A model generated the notes under the pieces. The model did not search any database and was not told the DNA's origin. It saw only the letters and a list, made by a program, of their open reading frames with translations. Shown piece after piece: positions 118 to 64,000 of a stretch of 64,000 nucleotides of DNA; position 1 is the stretch's first letter; the number at the start of each line of letters is the position of its first letter. The position numbers and the translations under genes are program-made. Source of the stretch: Nereocystis luetkeana (Eukaryota > Sar > Phaeophyceae > Laminariales > Laminariaceae); the NCBI GenBank assembly GCA_031213475.1, contig JARUPZ010000003.1, forward strand, positions 7,618,740-7,682,739, written 5' to 3'.

Positions 118-427
118 GTGAAAAGGAGAAAAACGATATGAACGGCGCAAAAAAAAAACGGCCCAAAACCTGAATTTACACACAAATTCCGAGGCCCTGG
201 ACATGAAACCCTGAATAGAAACCCGAACAATAATAGCTACCTGGTACAGTATTTAATAATAGCTAGACCTAAAATGAGGCACGCGCCCTGAATGAATGCC
301 ACAAAATAGACCCCTACAGTGCTATCATAAGCCTGAAAATCAAGTTCCTGAATCATTGCCCTGAATGAACCACAGTCCTCAACCGAAGCCCTACACGAAA
401 AAAAGAACACAGGGCGCATTCGTAAGG
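118..427. other. gene-free stretch, no structure beyond one footprint-like motif
   Basis: No exon was recognised here. A TACCTGGTA palindrome lies at 238-246. The rest is A-rich sequence without clear repeats. Confidence 0.5.
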
Positions 428-886
428 GTATATATGCCCGGTCCTTACTCCGGGTGTTTTGGTGGGCGTACCGAAGTTACCAAGGTGTCGGGTGCCGGTA
501 CCGAGTTCATACCGAACCTTGATACCGGAGTGTTCGGTAGGGTATATATACCGGTACATACCCGGGGTATTTTGGTGGGCGTACCGAACTTACCGAGGTG
601 TCGGGTACCGGTACCGAGTTTATGGCGAACCTTAATACGGGAGTGATCGGTAGGGTGGTACTTACTCGGTATACTTTGGTGGGCACCGAGGTGTCGGGTG
701 CCGGTACCGAGTTCATACCGAACCTTAATACCGGAGTGATCGGTAGGGGTATATATACCGGTACATACCCGGGGTAATTTGGTGGGCGTACCGAACTTGC
801 CGAGGTGTCGGGTGCCGGTACCGAGTTCATACCGAACCTTAATACCGGAGTGATCGGCAGGGTGTTGAGGCCGTACCGAACCTTTT
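428..886. repeat. tandem minisatellite, about four degenerate units
   Basis: Units of roughly 85-120 bp repeat the phrase 'GTACCGAGTTCATACCGAAC' followed by 'TACCGGAGTGATCGGTAGGG' and, in three units, 'TATATACCGGTACATACCC'. The units are rich in TACCGG/CCGGTA palindromes. All reading frames across them are repeat shadows. The array lies upstream of the first recognisable WDHD1 exon, probably inside an intron. Confidence 0.75.
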
Positions 887-1134
887 ACCGAAGACCTCGG
901 GGGGGGGTGCTTACCGAGCGAACACCCCCGGTATGTGCCTCGGTACGTACCCTCTACTGTACCTACCGAACACGCTCTTGCGGAGTACCTCCGCCCCTGT
1001 TGATAGAGCAAACCCTGGACTGCTCACCCTAAGGTGAATCACGTGAAAACGAACCCGCATCCCAGAATGTGATCACATCCCTTGGACCACAGCCCTGTAT
1101 ATATGCACATAACTATACCTTTTTTTTTTCGCAG

Positions 1135-1287
1135 AGATGGAAGGCGTTTTGATGGCGCAACACGCCCAGCTGGACACCATGGTGGTGAAGCGCATCCAGC
1201 AAGCTTGCGCGAACGAGAACGCCGAACGCGCCATGGACCTTGCATCGCTGCTGAACCTCGAAAAAATCCTTCACCATCGCTATCAAG
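1135..1287 (+). CDS. WDHD1: WDHD1/Ctf4 replisome adaptor, internal exon (conserved C-terminal helical region)
   Basis: WDHD1 (yeast Ctf4, AND-1) is a nuclear replication-fork scaffold that links CMG helicase to DNA polymerase alpha. This exon follows a pyrimidine-rich acceptor ending at 1134 and stops before GTGATT at 1288. It encodes MAQHAQLDTMVVKRIQQAC, then ANENAERAMDLASLLNLEK. This matches the Ctf4 C-terminal pattern 'hydrophobic-I-x2-AC-x5-ERAhxLhxLL'. As written, the frame after LEK reads ILHHRYQ. If the A6 run at 1261-1266 had five A's it would read SFTIAIK, which is the family pattern (yeast has K-S-F-x-x-A-I-K-I-A), and the exon would end in phase 0 to match the next exon. An extra A, from sequencing error or mutation, is therefore likely. 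The start methionine and the WD40 part are outside the window. Confidence 0.78.
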
Positions 1288-1321
1288 GTGATTTTTTTTT
1301 CGGTTTGCGTGTTTGGGGTGG

Positions 1322-1381
<60 letters not shown>

Positions 1382-1420
1382 GGGGAGGGGGGGGGGGGGG
1401 GGGGGGGGGGGGGTGTACTC
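1288..1420. repeat. poly(G) runs in the intron
   Basis: The donor-side part of this intron holds two nearly unbroken G runs (about 1324-1378 and 1387-1412). They abut the poly(C)-tailed repeat on the minus strand at 1421. The true run lengths are doubtful. Confidence 0.8.
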
Positions 1421-6273: not shown

Positions 6274-7088
6274 TAGTAAAAACGAGAAGAAGAGGGCTTC
6301 AAGGAAGTCAGGGTAGTGTACTACTTAGTAGTGATGCTGGCTGGGTGTTGCTGCCGCTGCTACGGCTTAGAGCGCTACAATCGAGCACACCTACGTACAG
6401 CAGGAAGACGCGCTGCTTCTGGTTGGTGCCGCTCACGGTTCATGACGACTTGTTTCGTTTTCACGTCCGATGGTGGCACTTAGGGTCACTCTTGTCGGAG
6501 AGCTTTTCCCCCATATTTTCGACCTTTTTTTCGCGCAATTTTTCAATCTTCCTGTCCCCCCCCCCCCCCCCCCCCCATTTTTTTTTTTTGTGAAATTACA
6601 CATTTTTTTTATTATATCATGCGATAGGCAAAAAAAGGGGTATACACGCCGCATGAATATATCATGCGATAGGCAAAATAGGGGGTATACATGTATTATA
6701 TACATGGTACCTTCTTCGGGCCCAACCATAGTACGAGTATACCTGGTAGATCCTCTGATTGTGGCGCGGGTTTGTTCTCAACTGAGGCAAATTATATCTT
6801 CTGATGATATTTCTCGTAACAGCATACCAGGTACCTGATATTCGTAACTATACAACTACTACTACTAATACTACTAATACTATTATACAGTCTGTACGCC
6901 TGCGTACGAAAACTTTGCCCGAGCAATCTCTTGATCGGGTGGGTGGCGCAATGTGACGGGCAACAAATACAGTGCTGCACCTACAGCAGTAACTACTGCT
7001 ACATTTTTGGGAGCCTGAGAAAACTCAGGTACTTTTAATACCACTACTCTGTACTTACTTGCTACTATTAAATACTCTACTACTAATA
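6274..7088. other. intergenic, partial family D end, C run and 55-bp duplication
   Basis: Near 6480-6510 the phrase AGGGTCACTCTTGTCGGAGAG matches one end of the 240-bp TIR family at 24858 and 38708; the copy is interrupted by poly(C) at about 6557-6576. At about 6610-6692 a unit 'ATATCATGCGATAGGCAAAA' is present twice. TACCWGGTA motifs lie at 6740 and 6825. Confidence 0.55.
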
Positions 7089-7304: not shown

Positions 7305-7431
7305 TTTAGAACTAACTGCAGTATCGTTTCAGTTTAAGTATGCTATATCATCGTATACTCGTAGACAAATTCCAAAAAAAGTCGTTTGCCCCCCAAAACG
7401 GGACTGGACTGCAGCCCTAAAAAGGTTAGGT
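7305..7431. mobile_element. degenerate family A (piggyBac-type) MITE
   Basis: The right arm, CCCCAAAACGGGACTGGACT then GCAGCCCTAAAAAGG, is clear. The left arm (ACTGCAGTATCGTTTCAGTT) is diverged and the TTAA flanks are lost. Confidence 0.5.
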
Positions 7432-8800: not shown

Positions 8801-9373
8801 AGACGAACGGACGAACAAACGCACGAGTTAATACTTCAGTAGTAGTGGAGGAGTGGTCAAATAAATGTAGCTACGAATTCACGCGCTCTGAGTTCCGAGT
8901 GGCTCGGTATATGCTGAGGTCCGCAGATCTCGGAATATGTAATACCAGGTATACAGCAGTACCACGGTTGTATTAAAAAGGACAAAGAGCGGCCCACCAT
9001 CCACCCACGTTTTTCCCGCCCGATTCTGGTCGTTTTTTTTTGGTCCGGGTTTGGATCAGGGTTTAGGGTAAGGCCAGGGGTTTTGGGTTGTTGTGGGTGC
9101 ACGCCCGTACCTTGATCCCACCAGGAAGGAAGCAGTCAGTGCTTCCTAGCCTGAAAAGGCGAAAAGAGCCTTTTGTACCCCAACAAGACTCAATCACTAT
9201 CAAGGTGTGTCCACCGCTCAGTTATAAGCATGTATGTATGTAGTGACAGTGACAGGTAATACCACTATTAATACTGTAACTAAATACCTGGTAGGCCCTA
9301 AAATGAAAACTAAACTCAATCCTCGTCGCTACCAACGGCCGATTATAAGTTTGAAGAACAGCTATGAATACTA
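8801..9373. other. intergenic, nothing recognised
   Basis: Only footprint-like motifs stand out: TACCAGGTA at 8943, TACAGCAGTA at 8952 and TACCTGGTA at 9285. Confidence 0.5.
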
Positions 9374-9503
9374 TTCCGGGGGGCCATGATAGTAAATAGG
9401 ACCTACGTTAGATACAAAAACCTACCAGGTACATATTTTGCTACTTTTACCAACAACATACCAGGTATAATATATGGTCCTATTTACTATGGTCCCCCCT
9501 ACC
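9374..9503. mobile_element. family B MITE carrying two TACCAGGTA insertions
   Basis: Ends 'TTCCGGGGGGCCATGATAGT' and 'TTTACTATGGTCCCCCC' mark a family B copy longer than its relatives. Two TACCAGGTA words, at 9423 and 9459, sit where other copies have a plain TA (CCTATATATTT and AACAATATTTGG). Confidence 0.7.
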
Positions 9504-10510
9504 TAGTAATACTTCCACCATCTACACGCCCCGCCTGCCTGCCCTTTGCTGTTGTTTTCGTCGTGTTACTGTTGCTTGTGCCGCTTAGCTCTTTGGTTGT
9601 GATATTGTTTGTCGTTATCTATCATCGCTGTCGTTTTTGTTGTTGTTGTTGATGTGCTACAGCACAACATAAGAATACCAGGTATTAGTATGTACCAGGT
9701 ACCTGGTATATACTATTAATAGCAGGCTTCGCGCTGCGGGCTGATGCCCGCCTGCGGCTCCCGCTTGAATGCTTCCGACAGACGGCTAGCTACTATGGAT
9801 GCAGGCGGTGGTGTAGATAGATGATGTGAGCTGGCGTGGGTTGTAGTGGAGTAGGTGTGGGCGTAGGATGTACCAGTACCGGTTTTAGTGTGGGGCCGCT
9901 ACGAACACACCGCTGTGGACTGCTGTGCAGCTGATGACCGAAACTATCTACGACAGCGTACAGCAGTACTATATACTGCGGTGGAGACACACACCTACCT
10001 GGCACTGCTGTGCAGCTGACGTCTGTTGTTTTGACGTATCCGCAGACGGTAGTTTGTACTGGTATGTATGTACACGCCTTGGTCCAAATAAATGCCAAGC
10101 TTCCATATCCAAAGGATTCATATTAAAAGGAAATAGTCTCCCCAAGACAGATATAAATGTCGAGTTTTTTTCCGAGCTCATAATCCTATCAGCATAGTTG
10201 AGGAAAATGCAGCCCCCACCGTAGCCCGTCGACATGCTACTTATACACTGCTGCACGAGGCCGTATGAGACCCGCGGTCCGCACGGTCGAAGTATCGTGA
10301 CACACAACAGGCTGCGAAGATGATTTCCACGAAATCCTCCATCTCACATCTAATCTATGGCTGTTGTTTTAAAATATACTTTACTTGTAGGAGCACTCAT
10401 CATGTATGTCGTCAGTAGTTTTGTCTGTATCAATCGCCATACAACACGTTCACTTGCCATACTTACTTGATGATTACACCTCTGCCTGCCTACCCGAAAT
10501 GCTGCTGGAA
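9504..10510. other. intergenic, nothing recognised
   Basis: The stretch holds three clustered TACCWGGTA motifs (9676, 9693, 9700), a TATTAATA at about 9714 and a TACAGCAGTA at 9959. No exon could be supported. Confidence 0.5.
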
Positions 10511-12286: not shown

Positions 12287-13140
12287 GTGAGTCGGCAGTC
12301 CGCGTTCAAAAATAGATCGTACCAGTAGTCCGATAAAGGAGCGAGGGTTCAAAATCGTGTAATACGTACTGCCAGTTGCTCACCATTCGTAGCTCCTAGC
12401 ACGACGTAGCACGTACTCGTACGTATGTGCGATGAGCTCTACGAGTACCAGGTACGTTTTTGTGTAGAGCAGTAGCACTCTCTGTACTTCACTGCTGATG
12501 GTGCGTGTGACGTCTGACGCTTTTTTTTGTGGCCCATTCTGTATAAAGGTAAAGTTGTGGCATGTGGCTTGCTTGTAGCATTTGGTTTCATTCGCGTTGT
12601 GCCATCTTTATCTTTGTCTGGCGCCTGTGGTACTTTGGTGCAGTAGTGGCCGCAGAGGAGCTGGTACCTCTGTTCGAGTAGGGTGAAGAACCGGCACGGA
12701 CACTGCTGGGTGTGTTATGCGCTGGATGCCTAGGGGTGCAGAAGAACACATGCCGCCACCACACAAAAGTGTACGCGAAACAACGCCGTAGAAGAAGGCA
12801 AGAAAAAATCCGGCAACAAGCAGCAGTCCAACAAAATCCAAGCCTTGCATGTTTATGTTTGTGTTTGTCATTGGGTCGTGGTCCCATGTATGCCCTATTA
12901 TCATTATATCGCGTTGTTGGCGCAGTGACCGCAACCCAAACGTATGCGAGCAGTACTCGTACCTGTACCTGTTATGTATACTACTGCTACGTACGTACAC
13001 GTAGGCGGGAAACGTAGGGGTGGGCGGGTCGAGCACGAGGGTAAATATTGGTGTCGCTCCGGCCCGAGCGAGTCGCATGCACCTATTGTATCGTATCATA
13101 CGTTCATCAAACACCAGTACAGCAGTGTGGCAGAGATCTT
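12287..13140. other. 7TM-RGS intron 1, first part, no recognised element
   Basis: Intron sequence with scattered GTAC-rich palindromes and a TACCAGGTA at 12446. The long open frames at 12600-13110 on both strands show no family resemblance. Confidence 0.5.
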
Positions 13141-13236: not shown

Positions 13237-13664
13237 TAGCGTACCAGGTACCAGGTACCAGTATACACTTCGAAGTATCATGGACGGGTTTCGAGCGCCA
13301 AGATCGGATCGTGACATTTTTTTTTGCATCTCCTGTTGCTTCCTGCGAAACCGCCGTTCGATTAAAAAATCTGGGAAATATTTAAACAATAATGGGAATT
13401 TAGTATGGAATGTACCCCTGATTCAACAAGATTTTGTTGTGCTCATGGTTGATTCTGGCGGGAAGGCGGCAAATGGTTGAAATGTCTGGCCGAGAAGTGT
13501 ATGAGGAATACTGATTATTTACGGGAGGATATTCGGTTTATATTGGAATGGCATCTGCGCTATGTTGTCGGAAGGCAAGCATAAACAATGGTAATAAATA
13601 AGGTCATCATAAAAACAGAAAACAGCGTCAACAACACAGCAGCAGTACGTAGTATTGCGGGGGA
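13237..13664. other. intron sequence, two overlapping footprint motifs
   Basis: TACCAGGTACCAGGTA at 13242-13257 is two overlapping copies of the 9-bp motif sharing a TA. Nothing else was recognised. Confidence 0.5.
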
Positions 13665-13759: not shown

Positions 13760-13849
13760 TAGTAGTCGTCGACATGTTCACACTTGCATCTTGTCGACAG
13801 CAGTTGGTTCTTATTTTCGGATACTCTACTACTGCTGCTGTAGTATGGG

Positions 13850-17400: not shown

Positions 17401-18234
17401 GATAATATGTGCTGGTACCAGGTACCTGGTATTTGTTTCCGGCATTTTCGTAGGTACCAGTTTTTTTTTTTTTTTTCCTTCTGATGTCTCGATCGGTGAG
17501 TTTGTGTTGCTCTTGCAAATTTGACCCGACATGCGGGTGCGTTGACGCGGTTTGGTGTTGCTGCTGCTGTACGTACACGCGACAAGTTCGCCGTCTCGTC
17601 GGCACACCGGTAGTTACAGCAGCAGGCTTGGTAAGTCGACTGGTTCACCTGGTGTGATATACATGGTAGACAAGTACGAGAGTACTCTGTTCAGAAAACT
17701 ATATCCGGTACTCGTACCTGGTACGTTTCTAGAAGGCGCTTCGCTCCGCGGGCGGCCTACGCCGCCCGCTACGCTCGCTCAGAAGGAAAAATACAGCAAA
17801 AGTATTTATGCGAAGCGGACAGAGGTCCATGATTGAATATAGTTTCTTTTTACTTGTATGATTAAAAAAATCATGATTGTAGTATTGTAGTTGCAAACTG
17901 GCGACTTGATGTCATGTGCCTAGACTCCGGCCTTGACGAGAAGACAGCTCGGACGCTACATACGCTTCGCGTCGCGGGCGGTTCCGCCCGCTACGCTCGC
18001 TCACATGCCGTACGTAGGTATATACCCCAGGTAGGGTATAATACTCGTACGAGTGCCTATTTTCTTATTTTGAGAAACTGCTGTATGTACGAAAGACGAT
18101 TAACAGCACGGCACAGCAGCACCGCAAATAAATACAATGAAAATGAAACCGAAAATTCGGAAAGAACCCCCCCCCCCCCCCCCCCCGCCGCCCCCTCTGG
18201 TAATATTTTGTCCACACCCTGTATAACTATGTTA
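17401..18234. other. intron sequence with footprint motifs and a duplicated 45-bp GC block
   Basis: Overlapping TACCAGGTACCTGGTA lies at 17416-17431 and TACCTGGTA at 17715. The block CGCTTCGC...GCGGGCGG...CCCGCTACGCTCGCTCA occurs at about 17741-17780 and 17960-18003. A C run lies at about 18168-18186. Confidence 0.55.
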
Positions 18235-19745: not shown

Positions 19746-20379
19746 TCGTGTGTGCACCGCGTACCAGGTCTATGATTACCTGTAATTAGTTGCCTTCTTC
19801 GTGCTACCGTTTTCCCATAAATGACAACATAGACTTTACAGCTGGTACGTGTCGTATTAATAGTCAACTTACAGGTACTTTTCGCCCAAAGGAAATGCGA
19901 AAAATCTCAAGAACATACCCTACAAAAGCGAGAAATGGAGACAAACGACAACCACAACCACGGAAAGGAACAGCGTCCCTTCCTCCTTCCACCGAACACA
20001 TGCATGATGCTTGCATGGGCAGGAAGAGAAGCCCCGAAAGCTCCAACACATGAGGGAAGACAAGGGGAAAACAGACAGACCAAAAACAAACAAGAACGAC
20101 AACGGAGACCGCAAACAAGGCAGACCAAACCAAACTGAATCGTACAGACAGCAAGCGGCGGCGCCAGTACTCTCGGACGGAAACGAAAGCGTCGCCATCA
20201 TGCCAGAGATTTCCTCCTGTGTCCTTTCGTTCGCTTTCGTTATTCTTCATATTTCGCTGCGCTCAGTCATCGCCTCCTTATAGACCTGTTAAGCACGACC
20301 CACGTCAAAGGTTTGTATATTTACTACCTGGTATGTAGAATGTAATGTGAAGACTTGATTTTGAATGCCATTTGCATGG
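19746..20379. other. intron sequence between inverted copies, nothing recognised
   Basis: Frames on both strands at 19860-20280 overlap and show no domain. TACCTGGTA lies at 20325. Confidence 0.4.
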
Positions 20380-23237: not shown

Positions 23238-23796
23238 TCACAGTAGTCTCAGTTGGAATGCTGAGCCCTCTGGCCCATCGCGCGATGAAAACGAAAGGAC
23301 GTAAGTTGATGGGGAAAAGGGCAGATGCCTACCTGGTACGTGGTGGTCGCAGTTTGTACAAAATTGTTGCCGAGCGTAGATCTCTCTCTGCACGGTGCAA
23401 CTTTGCAACAGCAACAGCTGACCTTGATGGCCTCGGGGCACATAGTCTACCGCAGGTACATGATCGTACAGCACGTATCTCCTTCTATAATGGAGCAAAT
23501 TGTATACGAAAACACGAAAATGGCAGATGGAAAACGGAGACCGTCGACGAGAATGCGGGCGGCATGGCCCTGCCCGGCCACGTCTAGGGCAGCAAATAGG
23601 TGCTTGTCGAACCTCAAAAACGAAAAGCGCTTGCTGTGCTCGATGGTACACTTTAGTTGTATCGCTGGGCAGCGAGCGGTGCCAGGTACAATCCTGCCAT
23701 TAGATATCCTGACAGCCGGCAGGAACTCGCGCTGCCGTCGATTTCTGTGGAGTTGGTGGATGGTGGACGGTAATAACGTACACCCTCGCGCGAGAA
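23238..23796. other. long open frames on both strands, possible decayed gene
   Basis: The plus strand is open for 185 codons (23325-23882). One minus-strand frame also reads naturally over most of the same stretch (for example AIQLKCTIEHSKRFSFLRFD and AALDVAGQGHAARILVDGLR), though it is not fully open. No domain is recognised. A family A MITE bounds it at 23797. It could be a gene or mobile-element fragment lying in intron 1 of the 7TM-RGS gene, or chance. Confidence 0.25.
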
Positions 23797-25539: not shown

Positions 25540-27124
25540 GTGCGCACTGCGATACAACTGCTGTAGTGGTGATCCCTCTGTAGTGCCGGCATGCGCCAGG
25601 CCAATACACAAACACCGGCTTTGTAGAGGGCAACCGGCGTTATTCCCCGCACTGCCACAAACTGGTCAAACCCGATACCTGGTATGTGCCAAGCGATCCC
25701 CCCCCCCCCCCCCGGCAATATATCGGGCATCGGCATCAACAAACCGGCATTATAGAGGGGCATTTACTGCTGTACTGCGCGGAAATACGAGGGGAGGTAT
25801 ATATATATAGATATATATATATACGGGGCAGCATATATGGCGCGGTGGTTGATCGCGCATTTACTCTTGCGCCTTGACGGACCGCCGTACAGCGTCAGGC
25901 ACCAACCCGGATTAAAACTACCAATGGTATTAGTTGGAGGACCCTTGGAACGGCATGCGAAGTACATATTTTTGTTGGGTTTATACGGTAGCGCTACTGT
26001 ACCAGTTGGCGTGCTCACTCAGTCACGTGGCTTTGTGACTGTATGTAGGCCTGTGGGTAGTGCTATGCAACCGACGCTGTACGAATTGCAGATATTGTAT
26101 TGAGTCTGTTTTTTTTTTTTTTGGGGGGGGGGGGCGAAAGTAGACTGGGATAGAGTGTGACCAATGTAGGATCCCTGCTGCTGCTGCTGCTGCTGTGCAG
26201 GTCGTATCTGGGAATGCTACGGTCTTTTCACTCACGCGGGTTAGTAGGTTGCGTGCTTGGGGTCTTTGCTTGGATGTGTTTCGTACGCACAGTATATAGC
26301 TATCAATACCTGACATTTTTTCCGTTGCTTGTCTCGCGCCCAGATGCCTTCTCGCAGGCGGCCACACGCGACTTATTTGTGATGTATGTATGGTACTCGT
26401 GCCTGAGCCGCATAGTTTCGCAGGCCGCTGCTTTCGCGACAGCAGTGGCAGTAGTTCTCCACCCCGCAAGATTTTGGGGACTGGCAGGCATCGCCGGTGA
26501 AGCAACACCTCACCCCCCCCACCCCTCCAAACGTCCCCCGCGCCCCCAACGAAAGCATTTCCTCCTTCCTGCTCCCCTACCCCACAGTCGATACGTGACT
26601 CCTGTGCCACGCCGTAAAATCGAATACCCTATGCTGTACCTCGACCGCCTCATGCCGGCTGTTCACCTGCGCGTAGACGGCAAGCCGACCAACATCAGGT
26701 AGTTTCGGCAATCACCGTCTTCCCAATCGACGTTGCCATCCATCCACATGCAAGAACATCCGCCTATAAAGCGGTTATTTAGCAGCATACAGCCCACTCT
26801 TCATGCGACTGGCCGAACACCTCTCGGCGTTTCGCGCGCGTTGCAAGCGATGCCTGTCCGGTCGGTGGAAACCCGGCGTTGCTCCGTCCCGGCATTGTAG
26901 GGGTGCGAGGGTCTACGGCCATACGACTGCGGCCACGCATGACATGAGTACCTCCACCCACCCACCCAGCCACCCACCCCACCCCACCCCACCCTTCTCC
27001 CACCCTCACCCCATCCCCCCGCGTGCACGCACCTCGTACATACTACTGGAAACACACACACACAACACTAACTCCAAGTAGTTTGTCCCCTGTCAACGAG
27101 GATGCGAGCTCTAAGGGAGATATA
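25540..27124. other. 7TM-RGS intron 2 with a 181-codon open frame and family C copies
   Basis: A plus-strand frame is open at 26157-26702 (hydrophobic stretches VGCVLGVFAWMCFVRTVYSY and FATAVAVVLHP, ending in MLYLDRLMPAVHLRVDGKP). It cannot be spliced in phase with the neighbouring 7TM exons. A minus-strand frame covers much of the same stretch. Family C sequence lies at 26790-26975. Whether the open frame is a nested gene is undecided. Confidence 0.35.
26790..26975 (+). repeat. family C repeat, 5' truncated, C-rich end
   Basis: It contains CACTCTTCATGCGACTGGCC, CCGGCATTGTAGGGGTGCGA and 'ACGCATGACATGAGTACC', followed by CACC/CACCC repeats instead of pure C. Confidence 0.7.
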
Positions 27125-31705: not shown

Positions 31706-32494
31706 GTGAGAGAGTAACTCAAAAGAGGAGGGGATAGACCAGTAGTTTCAAATACGTGTCGTACATTAATAGGTTGTTTCGGTTTGGTGGTCACTTGTTT
31801 TTATTGTTTTGATGGGAGTTTAGACTTTTTAGACATAATCCGAAAGCTGGCCTATCAAACCATTGCTGCGCTGAGATGTACTGATGCACTACGTACCAGG
31901 TATACGTTTTGATGTTCTCGGTCACGTTTGGTTGCCGCTGACTCCACCAACGTTGTTTCATAGCGCTATCCAGTGCATTCGTACGCACCAACCTGATACG
32001 GCACCCCCCCCAACCCCCCTTCCCCCCCATGCCCCCCTTAAGGCCCTCTCAGAACCACGCCCCCGTTTTTTTGGGGGCTACACACTTGACATTAGTGTGG
32101 AATATTGTTTCACAGTGGTGGCACATCAAGCATAAGGTTGACGCCCATCCTCCGGCGCCGCTACCTTTCTTTTGTATTGAACGAAGCGTAATTCAGCCGT
32201 CCGCGTAAGCACATCCAATCAACTCACTCAGGGGTTTACTTCCGGGTCTCCCGCAATATAAGCGCCTCCGGACCCTGATGAAAAAGCAATTCTCCGAGAC
32301 GTAAATCGTAAATCCAGGGGGCCCACAAGGAGGCAGACACTGCAACGCTATCTTTTGGCCCGGCCATGCTTCAAAGCGGTGGCACGTTTTCGACACGATT
32401 TGTTTGTCTCACACGGAACCGTCGTCAAACCTCTCCGCGTCGTCCGCTCCCACCCCCCCCCCCCCCCTATCCACCGCTGTAACACCAAAACCAG
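31706..32494. other. intron or intergenic segment with a possible 7-codon microexon
   Basis: At 32116-32136, between TTTCACAG and AAG|GTTGAC, lie seven codons (WWHIKHK), phase 0 at both ends. They could supply the last RGS helix, but the donor is weak. A C run at about 32451-32467 precedes the next acceptor. Confidence 0.35.
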
Positions 32495-35700: not shown

Positions 35701-35829
35701 ATGATGTAGCTTATAATTACGAACAAAAACCGCGTTCATGAATACAAGCGCCTTCTTGTACACTATTCATGCGAACATACCAGGTACGAATAGGCAAGCA
35801 AAGCTTATATTTCTGGAGAAAACTTATTT

Positions 35830-37707: not shown

Positions 37708-38707
37708 CAAACGGAGCCACAAAATTGTCGCTTTAGCAGTCACTAGTGGAAAGCTTTGGGCGTCTCGGGATAGAGTGCAGTAAGTTCATCGACCAGCTGG
37801 CTGCTAGTGTAGTGGGGGGGGGATGGTGGGTCGATGGGAAGGAAAGGATTGGTGAAGGAACGCCTACTCCTAATCGTCTCGGTGACTACACAGGTCGCCA
37901 TTTCGAGGAGGGTATCACGATTTAGACTCCAGCTTATATAGGGGTCGTCAGGAATCGAGAAGGAGCAGGGGGGGGAGGAGATGAAAGACCCACATCGATG
38001 GCGTGGGGACGGAGCTTGAATGCGGGTTAGGATTCAAGTCTTAAGAGTAGAAGCAAACGAGTACCTGGTACACATTAATATTTAGGATTGAGCAAAGACA
38101 ACACTTAAAGTATCGTAGATAGAACACAAAAGCGATTTAGGATTGAGCAAAGGCAACACTTAAAGTATCGTAGATAGAACACAAAAGCAATAGACATAGA
38201 AGCTAGAGAGACTTTTGGTGTATAGGTTTCCTTCGTATACGGAGATTTCAGGAATGTTTTGATTGATCAACGTGAAAGCTCGTGCAGCAAATTGTCGGAT
38301 GGCAAGCCTAATAACAATTGATAATAACTATTTCCAAGAAAAAAAAGGCCGACTGCTACGAAAGAGCAACTTCAGTCACTACGTAAACGGCCCACGACAA
38401 CAACGGCCGACAACAACAAAGGACGACAGACAACCTACATTACCACTTATATACAGGACAAAACAAGACAACAACAGAAAGCAGTGATACTATTAATACT
38501 GACTTCTCTAAAGTACCTACAACCCGTGGTACCTTCTCTGCATCCAAGCACAGGTCACCCCATAGTGTTCGGGTTAGGGTTCGGGTGGTCAGCGTCTGCT
38601 GGATGCCTGGTATCTCCTGCCGCTGTTATCACTCCTGCTGAGATCCACGCAAGGAACAATGAATAGCGGCAACAACGGCAGCATCTTCAATCAAGTAGAA
38701 TTCTACC
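37708..38707. repeat. intergenic with a 57-bp tandem duplication
   Basis: TTTAGGATTGAGCAAAGNCA with ACACTTAAAGTATCGTAGAT is duplicated at about 38081-38195. TACCTGGTA lies at 38062. The rest shows nothing. Confidence 0.65.
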
Positions 38708-47484: not shown

Positions 47485-47790
47485 AACATATATATATAGT
47501 ATATATATTATATATATATATAGATGTATACGTATGCTTGTCAAATTTTCGTACTTTTGCCAACTTTTCTCGTCGTACACAGCACTTTTCGGCGAAACAC
47601 CAATTGCTCGGGCACATGAAGCCCTGCCGGACACATTGGTCCAGGTCTCGGCGCGATCCGTGCACTCTTATATATATAATATATTTATATATGGGGGCGA
47701 CGGGTTGGACTGACACACTCGGGCACGTTGAAGTGTGGTTAGCTTCAAAGCTACCTGGTATATATATATATATATATATCATCTATGTTC
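47485..47790. repeat. (TA)n stretches in intron
   Basis: TATATA tracts lie at about 47491-47525, 47668-47690 and 47758-47780. Confidence 0.8.
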
Positions 47791-48030: not shown

Positions 48031-48531
48031 GGTTAGGCCACTTCTTATGCAGTCGGATTTGCGGTCAGTTGGAAAATGGTGCTATCAGCACGTTCGCACG
48101 AGCTTTTGCCCCGAAAAGGTGCGAAACTGCTGTTTCTCGCCTCAGAATGACTATTAGGACTCTTCTCCAATACCTATCTAGAGCCGCTTCCCGCTTCTCC
48201 CGGTGCCTAGTTGCAAGAATTCACCTTCGGTGCTTTTCCGATCCAACTGGGTCAAATACGATTACGATCAGGGATCGGATCGCAAAAAACGTTTTTTTCC
48301 GATCCAATCGGGGATTGTAATCGTATTTGACCCATTGGATCGGAAAAACACCGAGGGTGCCTGGAGAAGCGGGAAACGGCTCTAGATAGGTCTTGGAGAA
48401 GAGTCCTAATAGTCATTCTGAGGCGAGAAACAGCAGTTTCGCTCCTTTTCGGGGCAAAAACTCGTGCGAACGTGCCGATTGCACCATTTCCAACAGACTG
48501 CAAATCCGACTGCACAAGAAGCGGCCTTACC
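48031..48531. mobile_element. 500-bp foldback palindrome
   Basis: The left arm, starting GTTAGGCCACTTCTTATGCA, is matched in reverse complement by the right arm ending GACTGCACAAGAAGCGGCCT. Both arms contain GAGAAGAGTCCTAATAGTCA-type sequence and CGATCCAA/TTGGATCG near the centre at about 48285. Arm divergence is low, and there is almost no spacer. The right end runs into a TACCAGGTA (48528). No coding capacity; it is a non-autonomous foldback or an inverted duplication. Confidence 0.75.
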
Positions 48532-49769
48532 AGGTACTTATTGATTTTCCCGGAGGTTTGTACCTTTTTTTTTCCTTCATGTTCGAAACCATGCAAACTT
48601 CAATACTGGCGCTTTTCGGACCCTCTCTTGCTGTCTTTATCTTCGAAGAATGTTTTGGCGTTCATCACCGTGGCGCGTTATCACCCCCCCGCTTTCGAAG
48701 CTCTCCCGTTTTTCTCCTCATTGGAAACGTTTAGACGCAACGCCCCCACGTACGTGCTGTGATGTGCTCCTGATGGAAGTAGAGACCAGTGTAGACAGCA
48801 TACGAGCACCATGCGCCCAAGGTGCGGGTACCGCCAAAAAATCGGTTGATACGCGCAGTTTTTGCGGGCTGCGTCCATGCGTCGGTCGAGCGTGTTCTAC
48901 GGTAGGAGCAGTGGTAGTACAAGCAGTAGTGCTGTAGTACGGTAGTAGCTTCCTCAAGGACCAAAATACATGCATGATCGAGGACATACAGTAGTGAGTG
49001 GGTATGCGCATATAGTATTAATCGTGGCTTCCTCGTCAAGGACAAAAGGACATGCATGGCCGAGGACATACACAGTCCCTGGTAGGTATGTGACCACACC
49101 TTGGACGCGGAACGACTGTACCCGGTAAAACCATTGCCAGCCAGTGCGACCCTCTCGCTCCCACTCGCACCTCGGGTCATATACGGCCCCACAGCAGCAG
49201 AGTACAGCACTCTGGCAGTATGGCTGTGAGGCAAGCGTACGCATAATGCGCCAGCAGCTGGAGTCGGCTGCTGCTTCGATAGCTCTAGGCATGACAGACA
49301 CGCTTCTCTCTCAACCCCGACGAAAGGGCTGGCTTTCGCCCACGTCTGCGTACATACATGTGTGTGTGTTCTTCACATGAAATCGTCCCTTTCTACCCAT
49401 GTTTGTTTTTCAAGCAGGGCAAAAAATCATCGTCCCGATTTTTGCCGATTCCGATTGCGATTCCGATTCCGATTCAAATCGCTCCGACGAATTGGGTGGA
49501 TCGGCTCAGATTCACAGCCCCACTTTACGGGGATCATGTCCCAGACCAGATAATCGGGCGCATGATAGGTGTACACCGGAAATAGGCATATATGGATACG
49601 GACGCAAGGAGCAATCACAAACAGCGGACAACGCGGCATCCAGATAGTCGGGAGGGGGAGGAGGGGGAGGAGGAGGAGGAGGAGGAGGAGGAGGAGGAGA
49701 AGGAGGAGGAGGAGGAGGAGGAGGAGGAGGAGGAGGAGGAGGACGAACCAAAAGGAGACGGCCGCTTAC
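48532..49769. other. minus-strand gene intron 6, GGA microsatellite
   Basis: It includes two related 70-bp segments with CATGCATG(A/G)(T/C)CGAGGACATACA (about 48970 and 49053) and a (GGA)n tract at 49655-49742. Nothing else was recognised. Confidence 0.5.
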
Positions 49770-49839: not shown

Positions 49840-50139
49840 CTGCACAGGGGCCGCGTGTTGGTCCAGACCACCACCAAAAACGACGCGAGACGGACGGAGG
49901 AAAACAGGAACATATGGGAGGGAGGGGAGGGGGGAGGAGGGGCGGGGGAGGGAGGGAGGGAGGGAGGGAGGGAGGGAGGGAGGGAGGGAGGGAGGGAGGG
50001 AAGGAGGGAAAATAAGCGTGTTGACGCTATGACCGTACACCATTTTACCTGTCCGAAATAGACTTGTCGACCAGAGATACACTAAGGTCGCTGTGTGCAA
50101 AATACCAGGTACTCTTCGACCCCCCTCCCCTTTTAATAT
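49840..50139. repeat. GGGA microsatellite
   Basis: GGGA/GGGAGGGA units run 49916-50010, giving Glu/Gly/Arg or Pro/Ser/Leu shadow frames. TACCAGGTA lies at 50103. Confidence 0.8.
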
Positions 50140-50640
50140 TTATAGGTTGGTTTGGCGTCGGTTGGCAACGACACTGTAAAACATGCCGCTCACAACGTGA
50201 GCTAGGCAACCATTGTACCAGGTACTGTTTTTTTTTTTCTATTCCGGAAGGTCACTGGCGATAGAGCTATACCTCGTTTGCGCGGGGTGGGGCACCTTTA
50301 CTCCGCACAAGGGGGGTGATCGCATCACGCACCAGGTAGTGTTTATGGTAAGGCACCCACCCCATTTTGGTATCTAGAAGTGGTTACACGAGTAAATATT
50401 TAACTCATTGAAGCTGTCATCCGTGTGCAAGTCCGACTCATAAGCGGTTTTTAGTAGGGTGCAGTTCACCCTTCATGCGACTCGCCAAACACCTCACGTT
50501 TCGCTTCGCGCTTGGTGCAAGCAATGTCTGCCAGATCGGTGAAAACCCGACGTGCTCCGTCCCGGCATTCTAGAGACGCAAGCGTCTATGATCCTACGAC
50601 AACCACCATACATGATATCGAGTACACCCCCCCCCGGTTG
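50140..50640 (+). repeat. family C repeat, near full length, with two TACCAGG insertions
   Basis: It starts TATTTATAGGTTGGTTTGGC and ends ATATCGAGTACACCCCCC. Compared with the copies at 1421 and 46575 it carries short insertions at 50216 (TACCAGGTA) and about 50330 (CACCAGGTA). Confidence 0.8.
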
Positions 50641-53107: not shown

Positions 53108-54264
53108 CTGAACAAAGCGAGGGTCGATAGGCACACGGTGCGCAGCGAGGTCGCGCACGCGTGTCGTGCACGCGCGAGAGAGACATTATATACACATGCA
53201 TGTATATATAGAGAGAGACAAGAGATAGAGAGAGAGAGAGAGGGGGTGGGGGTTGGGGGGGGGGGGGGGGGAGAGAGGGAGAGAGAGAGGAAAAAAAAAG
53301 AGAGAAAGCGAAGGGGGGAAAAAAGGGAAAGAGAGAGAAAAAAAACGCCGTTACCTCCTCTTCTTTTCGATCCCTAAGAAGTACCAGGTAAATCTTTCGC
53401 CTGTGTTTTTTTTTTCAACACAGCCGTCGCCAATGCGCGGCATGCCCCCCCCCCCCCCCCCGCCCCTCTCTTCCCCGCCCAAAAATCTCATGTACCAGCC
53501 TCAGTCAATGCTCCCACAAAAAGCACCCGGGAACAGACAACTAGGGGTACCTACAGAGGCACCTCATGCCCCCCCTTTTTTGAAGGGGGCTCCTGAAAGA
53601 AGAAACCGCTCACATTTTGTTGGAAATCTCATTCACAGCACGTCCTACTAACTACAGCAGTCGCTTTCTATGGCATACCCGGCGCTCGGAAAGGCAAGAG
53701 GCTTTCGTTATCTTCACAACTAGTAACATAATTTGGGCTGGTAGGCGACTCTAAAAACCTGTGCACACACCACGTAGATCGCGGGATCGAACGGTCCCAC
53801 CAAGCCTGCAAATGGGAGTTCAAGCTTTACAAAATGCGAGTTAAAAAAAAAAAAAAAAACGATCGCACAGGCGCTTTTTTCGGTTTGTTCGTTTGTCTGT
53901 TTGTTTGTTTGCTTGCATTTTTTAAAAATAATATACCTTGTTTGTTCGTTGTATATCAACTACATGTCATAAAATATATCATCGGGATAGGATAGGCGTG
54001 CCATTTTCCTAAAAACACAACTCTTTTTTTTTCGGCGAGGTACCGTATAGACCGTTGAGTTCGAACATGGGGGGGGGAGGGGGGTGGTGCGGCCGTTTGC
54101 CAATAATGCCGAGCACGGTGTTTTCGGAAAAAAATCATGATGGTCGAGAGAACCCTCTCCGACCACGTAACGTTTCGGCTTTTTAGCACCCGTCAGCACC
54201 GATTGTCGAGACAACGAGCGCTGTGGGAAACGGTCACACCCCTCCGCGAGCTCAACGCTTTTTC
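53108..54264. repeat. intron with GA microsatellite and homopolymers
   Basis: GA/GAGA tracts with a G run cover 53203-53340. C runs lie near 53450. TACCAGGTA lies at 53383. (TTTG)n lies near 53885-53910. Nothing else. Confidence 0.6.
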
Positions 54265-54362
54265 TTAACCCTGTTAGCACTGCAGTCCCGCTGTGGGGAC
54301 AAACCGCCCAATTCCCATGTAATTTGTCCCAAAAACGGGACTGCGGTACGAAAAGGGGTTAA
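54265..54362. mobile_element. family A (piggyBac-type) MITE, TTAA on both sides
   Basis: TTAACCCTGTTAGCACTGCA on the left and GCGGTACGAAAAGGGGTTAA on the right, 98 bp. Confidence 0.78.
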
Positions 54363-54414
54363 GGTGCCTACTGCGGTATATCAACCATGTCCCGAAAGTT
54401 CAGGACCGTTTCAA

Positions 54415-54513
54415 TCTCGACCCTTTTCGAGCTGCACTTCCGTTTTGGGGACAAACCAGTCAAATCCTGAGTAGTTTGCCCCCAAAGTGGGACTGCAGTC
54501 CTGTAAGAGTTAA
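54415..54513. mobile_element. family A (piggyBac-type) MITE
   Basis: GACCCTTTTCGAGCTGCACT on the left and GCAGTCCTGTAAGAGTTAA on the right. It lies 52 bp from the previous copy, so two members sit almost side by side. Confidence 0.7.
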
Positions 54514-54794
54514 CGTTAAAGGCTGAAAAGTGGGGGCACACAGCAGTGGCACACTGGTATGCCACAACAGCGTTCATCGGCCTTGGGCGGGTACCATTTC
54601 CCCCTCAAAAGTCCGTTTTTTTTTTTTTGGTCGTGAGGTACTCTATACAACAGCTAACAGCGCTAAAAAGATACCTGGTATAGTAGTAGCACAGACTTCC
54701 TCGAGCGAGCAAGAAGCCCCGGAAAAAGAAGGCTGAGTCCCTTACCGCCGCACGCCTCCATACCCACCGTCGACCACCACCTTAAGGGCGGCCA

Positions 54795-57258: not shown

Positions 57259-58216
57259 CTGGTCCGAGTAGATGCGTTGGGGGGAGCGGGAGAGGAGAGC
57301 GTGAATACGATTTTCGGCACGTGCTCGAACGACAAAGAAAAGGGCATACATATTTTGATGTTTTCTTCGGTAAGGGCCCATCTTAACGGGGAGGCTAAAT
57401 TTCGCTATTTGGATTTTCTTTTTTTTTGTTTCAGTGAGTTTTAATTCGATTTCGAAAAAAAACGTGTTTGTGTCCTTTCGGGAAACGGTGTATCAATTGC
57501 AAAACAAAAAAGGAATTCGGAACAGCCTGGAATGACGCACCACGCCGCACAACGTCCAGCGACAAGCGTAGACGAGAGCGAAGGTTTGCGTTATCGCGTG
57601 CGTGCCGCCGCCAGCCTCTTTTTTCTTTTTGGTGGCGCAGGATAGGAAGCTATCACTCTCAGGGTGTCTTGGGTGGGCAGAGGGAGCCCTCAAGCGCCAC
57701 GTGCGGAACAGCAATGGTGATGCAGCTATCGAGGTCTCGCGCACACCCTCTGTTTTATTGCTCGTTTGCTCAGTTTTCGTGATGGTTGGCCGATCGAGCA
57801 AGCCGAAAAATTGGGCTTGCGGTCGCCATGTTTTTTTTCGAGGCGCCATCGCCGGGGTACGATGTGCCATGGTCTGTGGGCGTGGGCGCGGCTATTGCTC
57901 CGGTCGCCTCTCGTTGAGGTTCGCGCTTTATCGCCTCGATCGTGGTCACCGAAACAACATATAATCACCCCAGACTCCACCGAGGGTGTTGACCCACCAT
58001 GAGCATGCTACATCAACGCTGATCGACTCCCAAATTCCAAATTGAAGTGAAAAAATCACACGAGAAAAGTCCCAAAAGACTTTTCACTTGAATTAAAAAT
58101 TTTTAATTGGCCTTGAAAACGCCTGCTTGGTGATTCACTCTTCGGCCAATCGGACGCAAATTAAAAATCGAATCAAATTTAATTGAAAGAAAAAAAGTCC
58201 TCGATAGGATGGCCCC
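57259..58216. other. minus-strand gene intron 1, lower part, nothing recognised
   Basis: Open frames at 57493-57870 (minus) and 57602-57964 (plus) overlap each other and show no domain. Confidence 0.4.
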
Positions 58217-59055
58217 TAAGACCTATGCCAATGGTACAGCGAAGTTCAAAAGTGTTTTTTCAAATATATCGCTTTAAAAAAACAGCCGAAATTTTTCTCG
58301 TACCGCCGCTGTGGGAAAAAAAGAGAAAAAAGTTTGATTTTTTATTTTTTTCCCCCCCAACGGCTGCAGGCGGCGCAATTAGTTTTTTTCTGGTTGCAAA
58401 TTGTCAACACGGTGATAGAAACCAGCTCGTGCGACGATCGACGCTCGATCTCGACAGAGACTCAGTCCACGGCCAACCCGCTCAGGATCTGGCAAGGCCA
58501 ACGAATATAGATGACGGCTTCGAAGATATCAGGTGGTCCCATGGTCTAGGGAGCGAGAGCTTGCCGGCGGCGTCCTACGGTATCCTCCCAAACCTGAAAA
58601 AAAGTCTATTTTTTGCCATTCGAGACGGATGGAGAAGTTTTGTCTTCTGTTTTGTGCAAACCAGCGACCAAATGTTTTTTTATCGTACGCCTGGTCAGCT
58701 CCCGCCACGTGACACCGCCCATGGTGTGAAGACATTGACCCTAGGGTGGGTCGGAGCCCCTAACGAGCGCACTCCGTTCAGAATTCATGACGCAATCGTT
58801 GGTTTTGTTGATCGATATCTGTCGAGGGCTCGGAATCTCGCCGCTTCGAACCAAAGATCGGCCTGAGTTTTTCTCAAGCCGATGTTGGGCCAACATCGGC
58901 CCCAGATTTGCTTTTTCCGGGCTTTTCCAAAAGTTAGGAACTTTTTTTTTTTTTTACGTGGCCCATAGGAAGCGTCTTCTGTTTTTTTTTGGCGGGTATC
59001 TTTGAAATTCAAACTTTTTATTGAAACTTCGCTGTACCATTGGCATAGGTCTAAG
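58217..59055. mobile_element. 840-bp TIR element, copy 1
   Basis: Terminal inverted repeats TAAGACCTATGCCAATGGTA / TACCATTGGCATAGGTCTAA continue as CAGCGAAGTTCAAAAG / an almost complementary TTTTATTGAAACTTCGCTG, so the inverted ends are about 38 bp. The body has TCGACAGAGACTCAGTCCAC and a plus-strand frame of 227 codons (58183-58866) that starts outside the element. The same frame is broken in copy 2, so it is probably not a conserved protein. Superfamily unknown. Confidence 0.75.
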
Positions 59056-59893
59056 ACCTATGCCAATGGTCCAGCGAAGTTCAAAAGTTTTTTTCAAATA
59101 TACCAGGTATGGCTATAAAAAACAGCCGAAAACTTTCTCGTACCGCCGCTGTGGGGAAAAAAGAGATTTTTATTTTTATTTTTATTTTTTTTCCCCCCAA
59201 CGGCTGCAGGCGGCGCAATTTGTGTTTTTCTGGTCGCAAATTGTCAACACGGTGATAGAAACCAGCTCGTGCGACGATCGACGCTCGATCTCGACAGAGA
59301 CTCAGCCCACGGCCAACCCGCTCAGGATCTGGCAAGGCCAACGAATATAGATGACGGCTTCGAAGATATCAGGTGGACCCATGGTCTAGGGGGCGAGAGC
59401 TTGCCGGCGGCGTCCTACGGTATCCTCCCAAACCTGAAAAAAAGTCTATTTTTTGCCGTTCGAGACGGATGGAGAAGTTTTGTCTTCTGTTTTGTGCAAA
59501 CCAGTACCAAATGTTTTTTTATCATACGCCTGGTCAGCTCCCGCCACATGACACCGGCCATGGTGTGAAGACATTGACCCTAGGGTGGGTCGGAGCCCCT
59601 AACGAGCGCACTCCGTTCAGAATTCATGACGCAATCGTTGGTTTTGTTGATCGATGTCTGTCGAGGACTCGGAATCTCGCCGCTTCGAACCAAGGATCGG
59701 CCTGAGTTTTTCTCAAGCCGATGTTGGGCCAACATCGGCTCCAGATTTGCTTTTTCCTGGCTTTTCCAAAAGTTAGGAACTATTTTTTTTTTTCACGTGG
59801 CCCATAGGAAGCGTGTTCTGAAAATATTTGGCGGGTATCTTTGAAATTCAAACTTTTGATTGAACTTCGCTGTACCATTGGCATAGGTCTAAG
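59052..59893. mobile_element. 840-bp TIR element, copy 2, abutting copy 1
   Basis: The same element in the same orientation begins where copy 1 ends, the two sharing the palindromic junction GGTCTAAGACC. Differences from copy 1 are few point changes and small indels. They include a 7-bp gain that creates TACCAGGTA at 59101. High similarity implies recent duplication or insertion. Confidence 0.78.
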
Positions 59894-61267: not shown

Positions 61268-61328
61268 ACGCGGCGCAAAGTCATCTCATGGGGAGACGGG
61301 ACGGGCGTTCGGTACCGTATACACACAC

Positions 61329-62093
61329 CTTGCGTCGGTAAGTCCTCCCCCCCCCCCTTCTCCTCCTCCTCCTCCTCCTCCTCCCGCCGCCGCCACCGCC
61401 GCAACCACTGGCCCCGTTCCTTCCAGCTGCCCTCTCGGCCCTCTAGCGATGGCCAGGTCCAGATCGAACTCGGACGCGAGCCTGACTCGTAGGGCGTCCG
61501 GGCTCGTTCGCGCTGAGCTGCCGTTCCCTACCCCCCCTCTGCCTCCGCTCCCGCCCCCCTCACCCCATCGATGGTGGCCATCATCCCCAACTCCACTACC
61601 TCGTCCATGTCCCTGCCTTTGCCCTAAGCTGCTGCCGGCCACGGGATCAACCTCCATCGGTTCTTCTCCGCGCGCTCCCCCGCTCCCGCCGGGACTCCGA
61701 CCTTTTCGCCACAAGCCCGGGCCGTTGATGCGAGATCGCGAGGCAGAGGCGTCGGCGGTAGCGCGGGGGGGGGAAACCGGCACAGATAGCTGGAGCGGGC
61801 GGCGCTCTCGTGGGGTTTCTAGGGGCGGCGGCGGCGGGAGCAGCAGCCCGGCATGGTTGTCGGTCCTCCTCCCCGGAGAGCCACGCTTCCGATTTTGGTC
61901 GGTAGTGGCGGTGGCGGTGGTAGAAGGAGGAGGCGGGGTCGGAGCTGAGCCATTGGCGGGCACCGGGCCTGGTAGAACGAAGGAGCACTTCGCTCCCGCT
62001 AGGATTACTTCGCCGTGGTAGTGGCCGCCGCCGCCGCCAACGCCACCATTGATGCCAATGCCACCGCCACTGTCGCCGACGCCGCTGCTGCCG

Positions 62094-62133
<40 letters not shown>

Positions 62134-62269
62134 TGCTGCTGCCGCCGCCGTCGCCACCGCCGCCGCTGCTGTCGCCGCCGCCGCTGCGATCTCTGGCTGG
62201 TCCGGGCCAAACGTCGGCAGGGAGCCGGCGGAGCCACAGCTGGGCAGCGAAGAAGGCGTCGGCATCCAT
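61329..62269 (-). CDS. unrecognised minus-strand gene, first recognised exon (low-complexity N-terminal part)
   Basis: The likely start is ATG at 62269-62267 (MDADAFFAAQLWLRRLPADV then WPGPARD). The frame is open upstream to 62368, with a possible acceptor near 62304, so an earlier exon may exist. Poly-Ser/Gly tracts written in AGC and GGC follow, then HYHGEVILAGAKCSFVLPGP, Pro/Arg-rich disorder, EEPMEVDPVAGSS and SPDALRVRLASEFDLDLAIA then RGPRGQLEGT. The donor GCAAG|GTGTGT is phase 2 and joins exon 2. Function unknown; the Arg/Pro/Ser-rich content suggests a nuclear or cytosolic scaffold, which is inference. The gene spans about 19 kb and converges on the 7TM-RGS gene. Confidence 0.58.
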
Positions 62270-62620
62270 GTGGATTCGGTCTCTCGCACTTGGTGGGCTT
62301 GGCGGGCTGGTGACCGTAGCGGCGGCAGCAGCGATGGAAAAAGCAAGTAAAACAATACCTGGTGCCAAGTACCTGGTACCTGGTACGCACGTATGATAGT
62401 CCAGTTTACCGCCTGCTGACGCGTCGGTACGGGACGGGACGCAAGAGAGGAGAGGAGGTGCTGCAAGAGTTGAAATGCGATGCTTTTTAATGTGCGCGTC
62501 GGTCGGCGGGCAAGTCAGAGTGTGCTCGCTGCCTGCTGGTGTTGGTTGCGTGCGACGTTATTATCGGCTCCTTTGTGGTGCGGGACCGATATGTGTTGTG
62601 TGTGTTGTGTGTGTTATTCA
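62270..62620. other. upstream region of the minus-strand gene
   Basis: It contains overlapping TACCTGGTACCTGGTA at 62370-62385. No promoter element was recognised. Confidence 0.35.
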
Positions 62621-62714
62621 CAACCCGTTTATAACTGCAGCCCCGTTTTGGGCACAACCTACTCCAATTCCAAGTAATTTGGCCCCAAAACGGGACTGCG
62701 GTCCTTGCTACCCG
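62621..62714. mobile_element. family A (piggyBac-type) MITE, ends eroded
   Basis: AACCCGTTTATAACTGCAGC on the left and CGGGACTGCGGTCCTTGCTA then CCC on the right; the TTAA flanks are lost. Confidence 0.62.
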
Positions 62715-64000
62715 TCGACATCCAAGACAATCGGTGTCCGTGCCGATTCTTCAATCCTATTAATAGAGACACTACCGAACTTGTGGTCGCAACACTATTA
62801 ACACTATAATATGACAAGAGGCAAGAGATACCAGGTAAATCAGTACAATTAATATTAATACCCTGGTACACTGCTGTTTTGCAGTAAGCAGAGTAGACTG
62901 CGCACTGCCTTGTCATTCATCTACGTACTGGATACGACAGGCACGACATAAAACATTCAATGCAAAGAGAGCAGACTCATTACCAGGTACTTGAGAGGAG
63001 CATGTGCATTAGCGTAAGCTGCATCAATAGATGCACTACCGCTTGTGCTCGCTTGCTCGCTTGTGGGCTGAGAGTCAAGAGCCGGCCGCAAAAATGCCAG
63101 TCAAAGCGCTGGGCACGCATCCAAGCAGCAAGCAAAGAGCCCTCACCGCCGCATACAGGCGAAGCGGGGTATGATATTAGACATGGACACATGGACATAT
63201 AGATGCCTCATGGCTCATTCCCCACCACAGGCAGCAGGGCGTATGCACCGGCGATGCCTCTGAGTGCAGCAGTCAGAGTCGGCATCCGTAGCTTCAAGCA
63301 ACATCGATGCACAGCCAGACGAACTGTCGACGAAGCAAGAGGAAGCGGCTAGTTTGCGAGAATTTCAAATATTCAAGACATGACGGCCAGGCACCAGACA
63401 CCAGGCACAGCAGTCAGATGAAGCGTCAAACAGAAGAACCACCCTCTCGTAAAAAAATCGAACTACTTCGTGAACAAGGGTTTTCCTTACCGATGAAAGT
63501 GATTTCTCCACCGCGCCGCACACATGCAGAGTAGGCAGCTGCAGGGTACCGACTGGTTGTCTACTGTGGGAGCCGTGGAAACTATTGCTCCATGTGCTTC
63601 TCCGCAGCAGCAGTATGCCGCTGCAAAGCGCAAACACGACAGACATTTTGTTTGGTTCAGTTGAATCATAGGTTTCCACTCATATGAAAACGCGTGCTTT
63701 TGGAGGGATTCAACAAGAAACACCCCCTTATACAATCAGCGGTTCCCTGCTTCCAACTCCTCAGGAAGAGGTGGAGTGCGCCTTTAGCGCTGCCGGCTTC
63801 TTCTGCCACCATCCGCGACCCTCGGGCGAGATCGGTTCATCTCCTTGTGTCCTCCATCGATGAAGTCAAGGCTAGGATAAGCCAGCGCACCGAGCGTGCA
63901 TTCAAAACGAGCCGTGTTCGCGCGGCCGGCGCAGAGCATCCGTTGCGCGTGGCATCGTCGACACAATACACAGCAGAAGGCGGGGGCTGTCGAGGGGGAC
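62715..64000. other. intergenic, nothing recognised
   Basis: TACCAGGTA motifs lie at 62829 and 62981 and a TATTAATA lies near 62849. Short frames on both strands have no domain or splice support. Confidence 0.45.

Follow-up and report, generated by a model that had tools for sequence, protein, structure and literature searches.

A 9-bp word dispersed through the genome of the brown alga Nereocystis luetkeana is probably the excision scar of a TA-inserting DNA transposon

Introduction

What process could have placed the same 9-bp word 33 times in a 64,000-nucleotide stretch of the genome of the brown alga Nereocystis luetkeana (GenBank assembly GCA_031213475.1, contig JARUPZ010000003.1, positions 7,618,740 to 7,682,739 of the forward strand; hereafter, the window)? 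The word, TACCWGGTA (W, A or T), is found as TACCAGGTA or as TACCTGGTA, which are reverse complements and represent one word read in either orientation. A preliminary description of the window labelled it a palindrome, a term that does not apply: the length is odd, and the two forms are the same word on opposite strands. We consider it likely that each copy marks the healed site from which a DNA transposon, having entered at TA and working like the elements of the Tc1/mariner superfamily, was excised, and refer to the copies as scars throughout.

Abundance of the word

Of the 33 copies in the window, 19 have a central A and 14 a central T, against an expectation of 0.53 under an order-3 Markov model of the window's own composition. 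This 62-fold excess agrees with the roughly 65-fold excess over about 0.5 expected copies claimed in the preliminary description. The count given there also stands, as do 32 of the 33 positions; the remaining copy, placed at 53383, actually occupies 53382..53390 (plus strand, TACCAGGTA, word match). Among words of the form TA-N5-TA in the window, the runner-up reaches only 7 copies. The excess extends to the entire assembly (465,085,209 bases in 1987 contigs), where TACCWGGTA occurs 182,395 times, or about once per 2.5 kb, versus 1,744 times for the reversed word. In a 264-kb sample, consisting of the window and 20 preset 10-kb stretches (L005-L024), we counted 109 copies versus 2.3 expected, whereas 20 order-4 Markov simulations of 264 kb yielded 2 to 8 copies each. 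The preset stretches contain 76 copies in total, with 0 to 9 per stretch. The central base is almost always A or T: TACCSGGTA (S, G or C) was found once in the window and seven times in the 264 kb, where 1.6 are expected. A chance origin is ruled out by the Markov expectation, the simulations and the genome-wide reversed-word control, and the genome-wide count, a comparison suggested earlier as a possible refutation, lies far above background. Overall, the phenomenon is real, genome-wide and quantitatively coherent.

On the counts in viral contigs and prokaryote genomes, we reject the idea that the word is common across organisms. The tandem word was found in 9 stretches of viral contigs and its reverse in 34, and prokaryote genomes contain the tandem word in at least 118 stretches, where equal base use predicts roughly 240 in 257 Gb (calculated). 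At some bacterial loci (L112, L118, L125 and L134), copies of TACCWGGTA are spaced at 7 or 14 bp; at L118 and L096, the letters of which were inspected, the copies belong to TACCTGG/TACCCGG tandem arrays. The bacterial copies spaced in this way look unrelated to the algal scars.

Insertion of seven base pairs at TA

Alignments with paralogues show that TACCWGGTA arises as a 7-bp insertion, comprising CCWGG and a duplicated TA. For 112 sites, some of them from loci chosen for their tandem doubles (L001-L004), the inserted bases were deleted to leave one TA and relatives of the flanks were sought in the sampled DNA of this genome; the script scored gaps, not the TA letters, which were read by eye. 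A spanning paralogue was found at 15 of the 112 sites (16 in an earlier run with slightly different rules), and 13 of these 15 have at least one gap-free relative lacking the scar, with 1 to 23 such alignments per site. Among the 13 empty-site cases, TA was read in 10, GA at L022:8092, and nearby gaps only in two. The sole relative of L007:9563 shares the scar, and that of L015:2622 is gapped.

As a case in point, the scar at 59101..59109 (plus strand, TACCAGGTA) differs by a clean 7-bp step from an empty-site paralogue at 58216..58326 (plus strand, ...CAAATATATCG...), and all three of its spanning paralogues are gap-free and scarless. For the scar at 50216..50224 (plus strand, TACCAGGTA), this holds for six of eight spanning paralogues. 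Two further scars, 9423..9431 and 9459..9467 (both plus strand, TACCAGGTA), lie in the same copy of a repeat resembling miniature inverted-repeat transposable elements (MITEs). At the former, 12 of the 15 paralogues that span the site show neither gap nor scar, and one shares the scar within 2 mismatches; at the latter, one of four is gap-free and scarless and the remainder align with small gaps. When eight copies of the MITE-like repeat from the window were aligned, the 9459 scar was present in none and the 9423 scar was absent from seven; the copy at 22993-23076 reads TACCGGCA at the position of the 9423 scar, which may be a decayed scar. A TA-flanked MITE-like repeat, about 105 bp long and bearing ACGGGGGACCATAGT as its terminal repeats, is found at 19382-19490 and 13653-13761 and many more times in the window and the sampled loci. 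Furthermore, the scar at 20325..20333 (minus strand, TACCTGGTA) is absent, in a gapped alignment outside the 15 spanned sites, from the diverged paralogue at 21041-21132.

The scars are neither tied to repeats nor concentrated in them. Dispersed repeats overlap 26 of 102 scars versus 292 of 1000 random TAs, and the idea that one or two repeat families explain nearly all copies thus fails. Single scars make up 95 of the 102 sites and doubles the other 7.

Target preference and tandem doubles

The target preference evident at the scar sites is palindromic and resembles that of a transposase. Across the 102 sites, an outward bias symmetric about the TA is evident at positions -1, -3, -6 and -7: compared with background, A is found at -6 in 51% versus 22% and at -3 in 47% versus 25%, W at -7 in 80% versus 47%, and R (A or G) at -1 in 77% versus 60%. 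AYR half-sites (Y, C or T) characterize 48 of the 102 scar sites versus 16% of background TAs. When a symmetric weight matrix was used to tell the 102 scars apart from the other TAs, 15,094 in number, the leave-one-out area under the curve (AUC) was 0.83, whereas 100 random TA sets gave a mean AUC of 0.50 and a maximum of 0.585. The context resembles AYATATRT, the target consensus of the Tc1/mariner superfamily.

In the window, tandem doubles are located at 9693..9708 and 17416..17431 (both TACCAGGTACCTGGTA, without assigned strand; in the first, the middle TA is common to both scars), at 13242..13257 (TACCAGGTACCAGGTA, plus strand) and at 62370..62385 (TACCTGGTACCTGGTA, minus strand), all identified by word match. 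The flank of the 13242 scar is a dispersed repeat (TTTGTCCCC...GGGACTG...CCTATAAGGGTTAA) present in several copies and both orientations, with relatives at 12-48, 7380-7407, 18548-18644, 23801-23879, 54265-54513 and 62638-62705. Genome-wide, doubles are found at 15,917 places versus 2 for the reversed pattern, overlapping places being counted separately, so that a triple represents two places. Built from the same 102 sites, of which 7 are doubles, the weight matrix gives TAs within scars a predicted hit rate 7.3 times that of the average TA. With 182,395 scars, two TAs in each and 0.0066 hits per TA, about 17,500 doubles are calculated versus the 15,917 observed. Because the measured target preference predicts approximately the observed number, the earlier proposal that later events reused the TAs of earlier ones is supported. 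The orientation TACCTGGTACCAGGTA is predicted to be the rarest (0.136 versus 0.364 for TACCAGGTACCTGGTA), and a hand count of the 59 plus-strand doubles listed gave 5 of the former versus 14 of the latter.

Decay of the scars and the six-base variant

On both strands of the 264-kb sample, forms with one mismatch number 196 versus 104.7 expected, beside 218 intact words, and include changes in the core. Provided that this excess consists of decayed scars, mean scar divergence is estimated at about 5% per base. The core changes among the one-mismatch excess imply that the scars are inherited, which argues against somatic elimination in each generation. Programmed DNA elimination of this kind, whereby germ-line elements bounded by TA are excised in the soma and leave a fixed scar, would agree with the TA boundaries, the very large number of scars and the failure to recognize a resident element in the sampled DNA. 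The internal eliminated sequences of Paramecium are likewise TA-bounded inserts in very large number, but they are removed to a single TA without extra bases, whereas the alga carries an inherited 5-base scar. Such a system would excise in every generation and its scars would not be inherited; here, the core bases decay by point mutation and the scars form tandem series as if re-hit, which places them in the inherited DNA. We therefore regard programmed elimination as very unlikely. The same one-mismatch forms bear on the view that the word is a functional motif under selection, such as a protein-binding, origin or methylation site. The strict core and a central base that is almost always A or T are what selection might produce, but the excess of one-mismatch forms and the appearance of the word as a 7-bp insertion in single repeat copies are not, and a function of this sort appears extremely improbable.

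A variant with six bases between the TAs is markedly asymmetric. Genome-wide, TACCAGGGTA occurs 11,422 times (reversed control, 409) versus 1,578 times for TACCTGGGTA (reversed control, 362), a ratio of CCAGGG over CCTGGG of 7:1; locally, the counts are 11 versus 1. Slippage in the GG run would produce equal numbers of both forms. The asymmetry places the extra G on the A-bearing strand, and this hints, if less strongly, that the terminal repeat of the source element begins with CCAGGG. Part of the 11,422 copies of TACCAGGGTA resides in repeats, namely, one dispersed repeat and one 528-bp tandem array, so that the 7:1 proportion is surer for the counts than for the underlying events. At G000:C1:1305185-1308362, TACCAGGGTA is found seven times among the matches listed with an exact period of 528 bp, as expected of a tandem array, and a dispersed repeat with TACCAGRTACCAGGGTAGTATGGTACGAGAGGAGC, present at many places on G000:C1, is perhaps itself built on scars. 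Two other words are over-represented in L005-L024 and the window, TACCGGTA (18 versus 3.8 expected) and TA-CGAG-TA (51 versus 16 expected), each possibly another type of scar.

Search for the source element

Several results weigh against an excised transposon as the origin of the scars, beginning with the search for the element itself. None of 122 pairs of CCWGG half-sites in 342,751 bp of the alga's own DNA (some loci overlapping) has at least 8 of 12 inner bases matching, and the 100 half-sites listed that lie in favourable context have no terminal repeat in common except for dispersed repeats that share flanks. With no source element recognized in 343 kb, scars far outnumber elements, an excess that is unusual for cut-and-paste transposition. 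Zero finds in 264 kb correspond to a 95% bound of about 5,000 copies genome-wide (calculated), which holds only for elements that fit the stretches and have alike ends. Profile searches yielded 0 matches to PF13358, with 30 candidates scored, and no matches to PF01359, the latter having none in any control genome either. By contrast with these profiles, PF03184 (DDE_1) has 28 matches in the genome, and a transposase domain of the Tc1/mariner superfamily is therefore present, although the matches speak to presence only. Terminal repeats fitting the scar were found neither in the sampled DNA nor in the flanks of the DDE_1 genes inspected (the 10 best loci with 1.5-kb flanks; 4 of the 28 extended).

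One candidate, at L199:2409-4386, is 1,974 bp long and flanked by TA, has the ends CAGTACCGGCCCGCTAGTAAGAAAC, contains a DDE_1 match (E 1.5e-5) and sits in a TACCAGGTA scar, at the TA on the right. It is the sole TA element with clear terminal repeats beside a DDE_1 gene. Because it begins with CAGTACCGG, its excision would not yield the scar in question, and it was rejected as the source; its position shows that the TA of a scar can serve as a target for another element. The word TACWGTA is found 18 times in the window versus 6.6 expected and perhaps represents 3-nt footprints of CAG-ended elements like that at L199. A looser pair test, in which scars were allowed as ends, returned two L017 pairs matching at 20/20 and 18/20 bases. 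Both pairs consist of scars in a single repeat that is present in inverted copies; as its other copies are scarless, the pairs were not counted as an element.

The failure to recognize a resident element in 343 kb despite a scar about every 2.5 kb would also be expected if the 7 bp were inserted directly, with a transposase or nuclease opening the TA and repair adding a fixed CCAGG, as in abortive or end-only transposition. However, a fixed 5-base core would need a template, which the terminal bases of an element would supply, and both the preference for certain targets and the duplication of TA match what integration would produce. Direct insertion thus strikes us as unlikely.

The remaining points on the same side concern the scars themselves. 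In footprints of Tc1/mariner elements, the TAs are typically separated by 2 to 4 bases, fewer than the five (182,395 copies) or six (11,422) found here. For this reason, we describe the scar as working like a Tc1/mariner footprint, as a new variant and not a member of that class until the source element is found. Furthermore, at L022:8092, the gap-free relative has GA instead of TA, and at 6 of the 15 spanned sites some paralogue also bears the scar within 2 mismatches, indicating that some copies did not arise independently but were duplicated after the event. Doubles in the same orientation account for 40 of the 59 listed, above the predicted half, and some of them may be tandem duplications. 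Scar-sharing relatives and excess same-orientation doubles, as well as the variant TACCAGRTACCAGGGTAGTATGGTACGAGAGGAGC in some repeats, would fit a dispersed repeat family or minisatellite carrying the word. Given the predominance of single scars and an overlap with repeats no higher than that of random TAs, we deem this explanation highly improbable. Finally, other mariner elements often leave variable footprints (PMC3770610).

Other scars and annotation of the window

The other scars in the window were located by word match. Those reading TACCAGGTA on the plus strand are at 6825..6833, 8943..8951, 9676..9684, 12446..12454, 31894..31902, 35778..35786, 48528..48536, 50103..50111, 62829..62837 and 62981..62989. 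Those reading TACCTGGTA, on the minus strand, are at 238..246, 6740..6748, 9285..9293, 17715..17723, 23330..23338, 25676..25684, 38062..38070, 47752..47760 and 54672..54680. Scans of the window with Rfam at gathering threshold and for tRNA genes gave no matches, and a Pfam scan of 10 open reading frames gave two, both below cut-offs. On another contig of the assembly (L011), a 205-aa reading frame shares 67% identity over 54% of its length with a Laminaria digitata protein and 99% over 88% with an unnamed protein, as would be expected of a brown alga.

Discussion

How could an excised transposon leave such a scar? The element would insert at a TA, duplicating it, and would later be excised by cuts at the element tip on one strand and 5 nt inside on the other, so that both flanks would retain 3' overhangs reading 5'-CCAGG. 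Two such overhangs could anneal with four of five bases paired and a central A:A mismatch, and ligation followed by mismatch repair would give TA-CC(A/T)GG-TA, in keeping with the logic of Sleeping Beauty but with a longer stagger. A cut flank ending, more rarely, in 5'-CCAGGG would produce the 6-bp variant. Alternatively, element ends differing at base 3 would provide perfectly matched overhangs and an identical scar. The central W was rejected as stand-alone proof of mismatch repair, since one word on two strands would look alike. More specifically, but only tentatively, we envisage a TA transposon of the hit-and-run type, cutting with a stagger of 5 nt and leaving CCAGG overhangs that anneal to each other, which might have made on the order of 10^5 jumps in one brown-algal lineage, each leaving nearly the same scar, and whose residents are now rare or gone.

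Comparison with known systems reveals both likenesses and differences. Sleeping Beauty leaves the footprint TAG(T/A)CTA (PMC2874221) through 3-nt 3' overhangs to which the footprints are identical (PMC7827188). The TA duplication, the few bases between the TAs (in the alga, presumably terminal bases of the element) and the A/T centre are alike, whereas Sleeping Beauty has 3 bases between the TAs and the algal scar 5, in about 182,000 natural copies and with a source element not recognized. In the Stowaway/Osmar5 system of grasses, terminal fragments of 1-4 bp remain, with several footprints at single loci, and the TA of one footprint later received a new element (PMC1925063). Short fragments between the TAs, presumably terminal in the alga as well, and reuse of the footprint TA are common to both; the grass footprints are varied, whereas one fixed footprint dominates the algal genome. 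In Ectocarpus, also a brown alga, Mariner-Tc1 elements of the same superfamily comprise 17 families and almost 12,000 copies, but the word "footprint" is absent from the main text of that report (PMC12477816).

No paper containing the whole words TACCAGGTA, TACCTGGTA or TACCWGGTA was found in open-licence PubMed Central, and the accessible parts of its literature on excision footprints, searched together with algae, palindromes and genome-wide terms, contained nothing describing such a scar. The type of mechanism is known, whereas its scale here, a scar of five bases and the lack of a recognized element have no precedent in the literature searched. The earlier statement that no described feature explains the word was too strong, in that footprints left at TA by transposon excision have been described and fit well, and the interpretation offered there is partly supported.

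If the scars are indeed products of excision, a single genome would preserve, in countable form, the traces of roughly 180,000 insertions and excisions, with their site, order (from the doubles) and age; target preference could be read from the scars, and the doubles would provide an internal check. Self-annealing overhangs of the kind envisaged above would allow host repair to seal donor sites accurately and the element to move very often at little cost. Indels of 7 bp at the TAs of such genomes would not be random mutations. Should the element be found, its matched overhangs may offer a useful excision system with clean sealing. The real frequency at which cut-and-paste elements jump would become a counting problem, and copy number may understate transposition by orders of magnitude.

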